Source: a bacterium
Lineage (GTDB): Bacteria > Patescibacteriota > Saccharimonadia > Saccharimonadales > UBA4665
Direction: 5' to 3'
Assembly: GCA_021783725.1 (NCBI GenBank)
Contig: JAJXTN010000001.1
Coordinates: forward strand, 1 to 64,000
DNA: 64,000 nt
Shown: positions 59,650 to 61,674 of the stretch, in pieces
Layout: every line of letters begins with the position of its first letter
How positions within the stretch are numbered: position 1 is the stretch's first letter
Translations under genes and position numbers: made by a program
Notes under the pieces: generated by a model
Told to the model about the DNA's origin: nothing
The model's database searches: none
Seen by the model: the letters and a program-made list of their open reading frames with translations, nothing else

Positions 59650-60237
59650 ATGGGCCTGAATAAAACCAAACTAATAGTTGGCTTAGGCAACCCTGGCAAA
59701 GACTACACTGACAGCCGTCACAACATCGGTTTTGCGGTCATCGACGCTTTCGTAACTGCCAATCCCGAATTCGAAACTTGGGTCGATAAGAAAGACCTTA
59801 AATGCTTAATGAGCAGTGGCCGCCTTGGGGATACTAAAGTAATCATCATCAAGCCGTCGACATATATGAATTTGAGCGGCGAAGCCGTGCTGGCGGTGTC
59901 GAACTTCTACAAAATAAGTACTGACAATATGCTAGTTGTTCATGACGAATTAGATGTCGAGTTTGGCCAAATACGCTTGCGGACTGGTGGTTCCAGCGCC
60001 GGCCACAATGGTCTAAAATCAGTCATCAAACTACTTAACGAAAATTTTGGCCGAGTCCGAATCGGCATTGGGCCGAAAGTTCCTGAGACTATCGACAGCG
60101 CCGACTTCGTATTACAAAAGTTTTCTCCTGACCAGCAGGCGCAATTACCAAACCTTATCAAAGAAACCAACGCTATTTTAAGTGAGTATGTCTACGGCGA
60201 ACGTTTACCAACCGAAACCCGCAGCTTCATTATTTAA
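59650..60237 (+). CDS. pth: peptidyl-tRNA hydrolase
   Basis: The 195-residue hydrolase has LIVGLGNPGKDYTDSRHNIGF (catalytic His), KPSTYMNLSGEAV, VVHDELDVEFG and GGSSAGHNGLKS. It frees tRNA from stalled peptidyl-tRNA. ATG 59650 gives the usual short start; ATG 59596, which overlaps the der stop (TAATG), would add 18 residues and suits coupled translation. A TATAGT lies directly before 59650, so another start at CTG 59656 is conceivable. Confidence 0.93.
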   Translation: MGLNKTKLIVGLGNPGKDYTDSRHNIGFAVIDAFVTANPEFETWVDKKDLKCLMSSGRLGDTKVIIIKPSTYMNLSGEAVLAVSNFYKISTDNMLVVHDELDVEFGQIRLRTGGSSAGHNGLKSVIKLLNENFGRVRIGIGPKVPETIDSADFVLQKFSPDQQAQLPNLIKETNAILSEYVYGERLPTETRSFII

Positions 60238-60251
60238 CTATTCTTGAAATC

Positions 60252-60294
60252 AAAAAAAAGACCGACGAGAGGGGGTGGGCACCGCTCGCCGGTC
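60252..60294 (-). terminator. intrinsic terminator of the minus-strand RNA
   Basis: On the minus strand GACCGGCGAG pairs with CTCGTCGGTC, followed by TTTTTTTT (60252-60259). On the plus strand the T-run is missing, so it belongs to a transcript coming from the right. Confidence 0.85.
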
Positions 60295-60647
60295 TATTAT
60301 TGGCGGGAACCGAAGTTCCCGCCCCACCCTTCAACCCACCCCGGCGAAACATCGAAGTCTAAACATATAGTGACTCGTGTCTGCCCCCTTGCGGGAGCAA
60401 CCATTTAGGCTCGCTTTGATCGGGGACCCCAGTAACCTTGCGGTTAGGGGATCTAGTTAAAGGGGTTAGTATGCTTTAGAGCGCTTCCGAGTATAATCCC
60501 GAATTGCCAAGAAATAAGTGGAGGGTAACAACCTATGTTTAGCACGCTCTAAAACAATCTAACGGATTCCTTAAAGCCCTCGAAAGGACTTTTCAGGAGT
60601 TAGAATGGGGGTTATAAGGTACAAGAATCATTATTCATGACTCACGA
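60253..60647 (-). ncRNA. unclassified structured RNA of about 395 nt
   Basis: The gene-free gap between pth and dprA carries, on the minus strand, a consensus promoter (60654-60682), a series of stems and a terminator. From the 5' side: GAGTCAT/ATGATTC; a stem closed by TCTAAC/GTTAGA; a 9-bp stem TTTAGAGCG/CGCTCTAAA (60545-60553 with 60475-60483). Then come CCCC-TAACC-GCAA-GGTTA-CT-GGGG (60427-60450), TGCTCCC-GCAA-GGGGGCA (60382-60399) and GGCGGGAAC-TTCG-GTTCCCGCC (60302-60323). GNRA and UUCG loops occur only in the minus reading. It does not show the conserved words of RNase P, tmRNA, SRP or 6S RNA that I know. Start is estimated from the -10 box. Confidence 0.7.
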
Positions 60648-60653
60648 TTTGCT

Positions 60654-60682
60654 ATTTTAGCAAATGAATGTCGTAATGTCAA
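60654..60682 (-). promoter_or_regulatory. consensus promoter of the minus-strand RNA
   Basis: Read on the minus strand: TTGACA (60682-60677), 17 bases, TAAAAT (60659-60654). Best promoter match in the window, and no protein start follows it. Confidence 0.75.
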
Positions 60683-60810: not shown

Positions 60811-61674
60811 GTGGATATTAATCAACTCAGACCGCAGTCGGATGACTTTCCGCCATCGTTATTAGCGATAGCCAGTCCACCCAAAATTTTGTATCACCGA
60901 GGTGCAAAATTGTCAGATCTACTCATGCGACCACGCTTAGCGATTATCGGTAGTCGCAGTGTATCAATTTATGGCCGGCAAGTTACCACCAAATTAGCTG
61001 GGCAACTAGCCGAGCAGGGGATTGTGATTATTAGCGGCTTGGCCTTAGGCGTTGACGCCATCGCTCACCAAGCAACGCTTGATGCCGGTGGATTGGCCGT
61101 TGCCGTCCTGCCCAGTCCAGTCGACCACCCCTATCCAGCGTCTAACATCAATTTAGCTAACCGCATTCTCGAGCAGGGCGGGGCAATAATCAGCGAGTAT
61201 GCTGATATCGAATATTCCTTTAAGTCGAATTTTGTGGCCCGTAATCGATTGGTGGCAGGCTTAGCCCAAGCCATATTAATCACCGAAGCCGCACTTAAGA
61301 GTGGCAGTTTGCACACCGCCCGCTTCGCCCTAGAGCAGGGCAAAGACGTTTTGGCCGTACCCGGCAATATTACTAGCGTTAGTTCGGTTGGTGCCAACAA
61401 CTTGATAAAAGCCGGCGCCGTACCGGTCACCAGCTACAAAGACGTCCTCCAAGTCATGAATCTGAAGCCTCACCACAGTAAACCCCAGCATACTACCGGC
61501 CGCAACGCCAACGAACAACGCATTATCGATCTTATATTGCAGGGCAAAAATGACGGTGAAGAATTACTCAAACTGAGTCAGCTGACCGTCAGCGAATTCA
61601 ATCAAGCATTAACGATGCTAGAGATCGGCGGCTTGCTTCGTTCGTTAGGCGCCAACCAGTGGTCTTTATATTAA
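60811..61674 (+). CDS. dprA: DNA-processing protein A
   Basis: A 287-residue DprA: Rossmann-like core with LAIIGSRSVSIYGRQVTTKLAGQL, GIVIISGLALGVDAIAHQATL, SEY, FVARNRLVAGLAQAILITEA and KSGSLHTARFALEQG, then a winged-helix end. It loads RecA on incoming single-stranded DNA in natural transformation, consistent with the DNA uptake often seen in CPR bacteria. GTG 60811 is set by TATCAT (60799-60804), 6 bases before. Confidence 0.95.
   Translation: MDINQLRPQSDDFPPSLLAIASPPKILYHRGAKLSDLLMRPRLAIIGSRSVSIYGRQVTTKLAGQLAEQGIVIISGLALGVDAIAHQATLDAGGLAVAVLPSPVDHPYPASNINLANRILEQGGAIISEYADIEYSFKSNFVARNRLVAGLAQAILITEAALKSGSLHTARFALEQGKDVLAVPGNITSVSSVGANNLIKAGAVPVTSYKDVLQVMNLKPHHSKPQHTTGRNANEQRIIDLILQGKNDGEELLKLSQLTVSEFNQALTMLEIGGLLRSLGANQWSLY

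Follow-up and report, generated by a model that had tools for sequence, protein, structure and literature searches.

Introduction

OLE, ROOL, GOLLD and raiA are large structured RNAs of bacteria whose functions are unknown and which have been treated together (PMC12286853). Like them, the RNA that we describe here is hundreds of nucleotides long, contains many helices, is highly conserved and is non-coding; unlike them, it is a chromosomal, single-copy RNA that is syntenic across the class Saccharimonadia, and an Rfam scan returned no match to any of them. The RNA also resembles RNase P RNA, tmRNA, SRP RNA and 6S RNA in its size class, its single copy and its near-universal presence in its clade, but it differs from all four in sequence and structure, and RNase P RNA and tmRNA are found at other loci. 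Staphylococcus RNAIII is likewise large and folded; its hairpins include C-rich loops, one of which is carried by the terminator hairpin. A large fold and C-rich loops, with one of these on the terminator hairpin, are features of both RNAs; the likeness is confined to how they might work, as the RNA described here gives no match to RNAIII at E ≤ 10, comes without evidence of ribosome-binding-site targets and is conserved far more widely.

The locus lies within a window of 64,000 nucleotides (positions 1 to 64,000 of contig JAJXTN010000001.1) from a member of the Saccharimonadales, in which an earlier reading of the letters alone (hereafter the sequence-only reading) had pointed out a structured RNA between pth and dprA. 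Here we present evidence that this locus is, quite probably, a single-copy Saccharimonadia gene for a structured ncRNA, with a promoter and a terminator of its own, whose product would act in trans as a housekeeping scaffold that presents the loop word ACCCUCC. In the open-access papers, which were the only literature covered, we found no prior description of this RNA. The RNA class is new; the general kind to which it belongs, the large bacterial ncRNA, is already known.

Results

The ncRNA gene occupies positions 60252–60647 of the window on the minus strand (about 396 nt) and lies in a gap of 573 bases between pth and dprA that contains no credible open reading frame. Its convergent neighbour, at 59659–60237 on the plus strand, is pth, which encodes peptidyl-tRNA hydrolase (PF01195, E = 3e-58), and its divergent neighbour, at 60811–61674 on the plus strand, is dprA (PF02481, E = 2e-67); both neighbours are conserved in relatives. 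The promoter (60654–60682, minus strand) is composed of a −35 element, TTGACA, at 60682–60677, a 17-nt spacer, and a TG-extended −10 element, TAAAAT, at 60659–60654. This σ70-type promoter scores 11/12 and is the sole promoter-like site between 59900 and 60900. We placed the ends of the gene from the promoter and the terminator, the 5′ end about 7 nt past the −10 element and the 3′ end within the run of Ts. What the sequence-only reading had reported of the locus, namely a minus-strand TTGACA-17-TAAAAT promoter, a gap of 570 bases devoid of protein genes, whose flanks Pfam identifies as pth and dprA, and minus-strand stems followed by a terminator with eight Ts, is present as it described.

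Among 216 homologous loci, a set that includes some duplicates from different collections, a promoter-like site scoring at least 10/12 was found at 194, as compared with about 15 expected by shuffling, and the spacer was 17 nt long at 199. Judged by its sequence, the promoter is of the strong, constitutive type. The −10 region also forms a palindrome, TTTGCTA-AAA-TAGCAAA (60650–60666, minus strand), that is well conserved across the family and that may be an operator, or merely an extended −10 element.

The minus strand of 60252–60647 folds at −156 kcal/mol (z = −7.1), as well as which none of 100 dinucleotide shuffles folded, whereas the plus strand of the same interval reaches a z of only −2.3. 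Orientation had earlier been deduced from hairpin loops of the sequences GCAA, GCAA and UUCG; these loops are indeed there and the orientation is correct, but the hairpins that carry them are variable, and relatives do not share these tetraloops. What relatives do conserve is another set of words: the ACCCUCC loop, CUAACCCCUUUAAC, GGGUGGGUUGAAGGG and the terminator loop UGCCCACCC. The layout of the RNA is P1, a variable hairpin, P2′/P3 tipped by P3a, P5 enclosing P6, P7 and P8, an optional P9, and P10 (all helix coordinates below are on the minus strand).

P1 (60625–60643) is a 5′ hairpin of variable sequence whose 4 outer pairs show two-sided changes, with 82% of cells paired, and whose inner 3 pairs are formed in just 48% of cells. 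The segment at 60569–60605 comprises a UUCUAAC strand (60605–60599), for which GUUAG would be an alternative partner, and a variable hairpin. The local helix UUCUAAC:GUUAGA is paired in 98% of cells, with one-sided changes only; within the family this helix and P2′ are both nearly invariant, and distant relatives covary as P2′ (GAGUA:UACUC, ACUAA:UUAGU and GAAUA:UAUUC). The local pairing of UUCUAAC could be an alternative to P2′. Covariation supports both strands of P2′ and P3: on the 5′ side (60545–60563) these are GUUAG of P2′ at 60563–60559 and UGUUUUAGAGCG of P3 at 60556–60545, and on the 3′ side (60465–60483) they are the P3 strand at 60483–60472 and CUAAC of P2′ at 60469–60465. In P3, the main helix, 11 of 11 outer pairs change on both sides among 64 order-wide sequences. 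The P3a hairpin (60516–60534) keeps its loop word, ACCCUCC (60526–60520), invariant and has a stem that covaries (AAGU:ACUU, UAGU:ACUA, AGGU:ACCU and GCGU:ACGC).

P5, a long-range helix, abuts P2′ directly; its 5′ strand CCCUUUAAC (60456–60464) is paired with GUUGAAGGG (60335–60327), and several independent compensations are found in relatives (CCCUUUAAG:CUUGAAGGG, CCUCUUUAAC:GUUGAAGAG, GCCUUUAAC:GUUGAAGGC, CCCUUGAUUAU:AUAAUCGAGGG and CCCUUUAAU:AUUAAAGGG). P6 (60425–60453) and P7 (60381–60400) are variable hairpins that each have a GCAA loop here; the former is poorly alignable and missing from some relatives, and the latter is supported by the fold and by covariation in alignment columns 272–289. 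P8 (60349–60381) is a bulged hairpin with two-sided changes at 8 of its 10 pairs. The 3′ strand of P5 shares the segment 60327–60342 with a G-rich strand, GGGGUGGG, which is possibly a pseudoknot strand. P9 (60302–60323), with a UUCG loop here, is an optional hairpin missing from many relatives. Domain content is thus variable, with P6, P7 and P9 being dispensable.

The 3′-terminal feature (60252–60294) consists of the terminator hairpin P10 (60294–60260), with its 9-nt loop UGCCCACCC at 60281–60273, followed by U8. The stem has 13 positions and one C·U mismatch, and a pattern scanner missed the hairpin because of that mismatch and the 9-nt loop. In P10, 99.5% of cells are paired and two-sided changes occur at 9 of 11 pairs, giving a covariation score of 0.942 as against 0.277 for shuffled data. 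The loop UGCCCACCC is constant across the order, and another family, f11, lacks the C-rich loop. A candidate pseudoknot between GGGUGGG, just upstream of the 3′ strand of P5, and CCCACCC in the P10 loop can pair in 93% of cells, with zero covariation; we regard it as possible.

Covariation was also scored for the fold as a whole. In the family alignment (53 sequences), two-sided changes are found at 35 of the 66 proposed pairs, and the score of 0.285 compares with 0.122 (s.d. 0.005) for shuffled and at most 0.085 for slid alignments. For P3 and P2′ together, in the 64 order-wide sequences, 98.1% of cells are paired, two-sided changes affect 14 of 17 pairs, and the score is 0.678 versus 0.209 shuffled and at most 0.173 slid; the slid controls matter in this test because the alignment had itself been made to fit the model. 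With a model confined to the 5′ domain we recovered 65 of 68 loci; words of the 3′ domain had served to gather most of these. The sequence-only reading had proposed that pair covariation be examined in relatives, and strong covariation is what we observed there, in P10, in P3 and across the family alignment. These compensatory changes reveal selection on the RNA fold, in particular on the core of P2′ and P3 capped by P3a, on P5 abutting P2′, and on P10.

The P3a hairpin loop word ACCCUCC is the sole element conserved class-wide. Of 187 distinct RNAs from the order, 184 contain it, a figure that is slightly favoured since CCCUCC was one of the criteria of collection, and it also occurs in the class-level homologues, which were gathered without that criterion. 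We found no internal partner for the word, with GGAG being present in 85 of the 187 RNAs versus 75 expected. Seven loci (L037, L091, L097, L098, L099, L115 and L119) have the P8 loop UGGAGUUUU in common; contact between it and the CUCCA of the P3a loop is conceivable, GGAG being unenriched overall.

Using blastn, we found the RNA in 86 of 93 genomes and 40 of 41 genera of the family. Across the class, 251 of 295 genomes matched a model of the 3′ domain, mostly with one match apiece; by listing, these are about 246 of 263 genomes in the order Saccharimonadales and 5 of 32 outside it, the order having been assigned by record names. With this model, 17 of the 263 order genomes had no detectable copy, perhaps owing to filters or assembly gaps; the E-values that the models give are approximate. 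Inspection of the hits established true homologues outside the order in 7 genomes, where the RNA sits at the dprA–pth locus, is shorter and is without some of the hairpins; a second match in one genome (L241 in G494) lies away from this locus and was rejected as a homologue. Lengths across the Saccharimonadia range from about 240 to 460 nt. On 112 of 119 named contigs the RNA has pth, dprA or both beside it, and these neighbours invariably run opposite to it; most exceptions are near contig or fetch ends, and the same synteny is found at the family and order loci and in other orders. Almost all of the named records belong to Candidatus Saccharibacteria, oral TM7 taxa 348, 350 and 352 among them. 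Two further records, named Chloroflexi PMG_070 (L109) and Parcubacteria 0813_bin17 (L110), carry the RNA beside pth and/or dprA and are probably mislabelled Saccharibacteria.

Outside the order, a family-trained model that scored only a few candidates in each genome found nothing among 380 genomes sampled from the phylum; this search tests absence beyond the class only weakly, because few candidates were scored and class-level members that came to light later were missed. Phage records and IMG/VR yielded zero matches to the RNA, and, with the locus being fixed, we rejected the idea of a mobile or phage element. Inheritance is vertical, in the dprA–pth gap.

No Rfam 15 family, OLE, ROOL, GOLLD and raiA included, reached its gathering score at the locus in the window, and no Rfam 15 match above the gathering score was obtained at this locus in relatives drawn from several families and orders (L028, L093, L102, L115, L138, L234 and L236). 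A permissive scan (E ≤ 10) gave 4 weak matches, 2 of them to other terminator-like hairpins, and the sub-threshold matches of the window and of one class-level member were to terminator-like or miRNA models only. Thus a comparison with all Rfam models, which the sequence-only reading had recommended, revealed no family match at either the gathering or the permissive setting. Its remarks that the size is in the range of known housekeeping RNAs and that the conserved words of these are missing were both accurate, and of the two explanations it had offered, the one that holds, given the lack of an Rfam match together with strong covariation, is that of a new class.

Discussion

Covariation, a promoter and terminator of its own, and conservation, by which structured ncRNA genes are generally recognized, are all found at this locus. 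The predicted RNA would be stable, trans-acting and of a housekeeping type; we infer action in trans because both neighbours read the opposite way, leaving no downstream gene in cis. By analogy with other large conserved RNAs, the fold would serve as a scaffold that holds the invariant P3a loop, and ACCCUCC would bind a conserved partner, be it a protein or another RNA. Public RNA-seq data are available for TM7x (GSE196744; PMC10768705), and a Tn-seq set has been published for Southlakia epibionticum (PMC10633639) with 40,382 unique sites, or about one in every 20 bp should the genome measure some 0.9 Mb.

The other explanation offered earlier, that of a highly diverged housekeeping RNA, which we take here as RNase P RNA, tmRNA, SRP RNA or 6S RNA, agrees with the size and single-copy conservation of the RNA, and with SRP RNA going undetected in 25 family genomes and this genome having no Rfam-detectable tmRNA. 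We nevertheless consider it very unlikely. RNase P RNA (RF00010) sits elsewhere in this genome, at G000:C7:20049-20562 (193 bits), and full-length tmRNA is present on other contigs in relatives that bear the RNA (for example G006, G074, G009 and G025); indeed, RF00023 exceeds its cut-off in 24 of 30 family genomes, on contigs other than that of the ncRNA. A diverged RNase P RNA or tmRNA is therefore rejected. Moreover, the locus matches none of RF00010, RF00023, RF00169, RF01854 and RF00013 at E ≤ 10, and ARAGORN found no tmRNA there. In this genome the tmRNA model matches tRNA pieces only, a candidate at C7:5062-5356 having turned out to be tRNAs, and the missing tmRNA may reflect an assembly gap. 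As for SRP RNA, RF00169 was found in 0 of 25 family genomes and RF01854 was not found in this genome, and neither was the SRP-RNA-binding Ffh M domain (PF02978), which was present in 14 of 14 control genomes. From these searches SRP seems to have been lost in this lineage. We set aside the idea that the ncRNA stands in for the missing SRP RNA because, with the Ffh M domain not found in this genome, it would have no Ffh to serve. That the product is merely a long transcript, untranslated or arising by read-through, that ends in a terminator and lacks a function of its own is next to inconceivable: the terminator does face the convergent pth, but this idea is refuted by covariation, with compensatory changes in the 5′ and long-range helices, and it is also at odds with the invariant loops, the RNA's own conserved promoter and its retention across the class.

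Two further alternatives concern the C-rich loops. A base-pairing regulator whose C-rich loops block G-rich ribosome-binding sites, in the manner of Staphylococcus RNAIII, would suit the two invariant loops, ACCCUCC and UGCCCACCC, one of them on the terminator hairpin, and CCUCC is the anti-Shine–Dalgarno core. We find this alternative improbable, however, as a Shine–Dalgarno motif occurs at 4 of 58 leftmost starts in the window (long open reading frames with mechanically assigned starts) versus 5.7% at random, the complement GGAGGGT is unenriched (3 versus 4.6 expected, one of them being the RNA's own antisense), and class-wide invariance is unusual for mRNA targeting. With Shine–Dalgarno motifs at background and the loop complement unenriched, anti-Shine–Dalgarno targeting of mRNAs is unsupported. 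The usual 3′ tail of bacterial 16S rRNA is UCACCUCCUUU, and the context of the P3a loop in two distant relatives (L236 and L238) is CUCACCCUCCUUUU, which differs from that tail by a single base, being one C longer. It is conceivable, if unlikely, that the P3a loop mimics the 16S 3′ tail and either titrates or positions some tail-reading factor, for instance one of the KH-domain maturation factors. That no loop word other than ACCCUCC is kept class-wide would fit such mimicry; against it, a seven-base word is weak evidence, the context in the window's own family, UUACCCUCCACU, is less like the tail, and 16S rRNA was not found in this draft assembly, so that the likeness rests on the usual bacterial tail. 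The resemblance of CUCACCCUCCUUUU to the tail suggests, but does not show, a ribosomal role, and we take it as a lead. Its boldest form, which strikes us as a long shot, is a new, near-essential housekeeping RNA exclusive to the Saccharimonadia whose target would be the translation apparatus, reached through a P3a loop imitating the 16S 3′ tail, in a lineage that is apparently SRP-less and sparing with Shine–Dalgarno sites.

Under the preferred reading, that of a trans-acting scaffold presenting ACCCUCC, the RNA looks like an apparently undiscovered core cell component of the Saccharibacteria (TM7), which are tiny parasitic bacteria. Few large RNAs persist as a single copy at a fixed locus throughout a bacterial class, and most of the known ones, among them RNase P RNA, tmRNA and 6S RNA, have proved central. 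The RNA is present in oral TM7 lineages that are near cultivated ones, and in one of the latter gene replacement and Tn-seq work; for cultivated epibionts a method based on natural transformation has been published.
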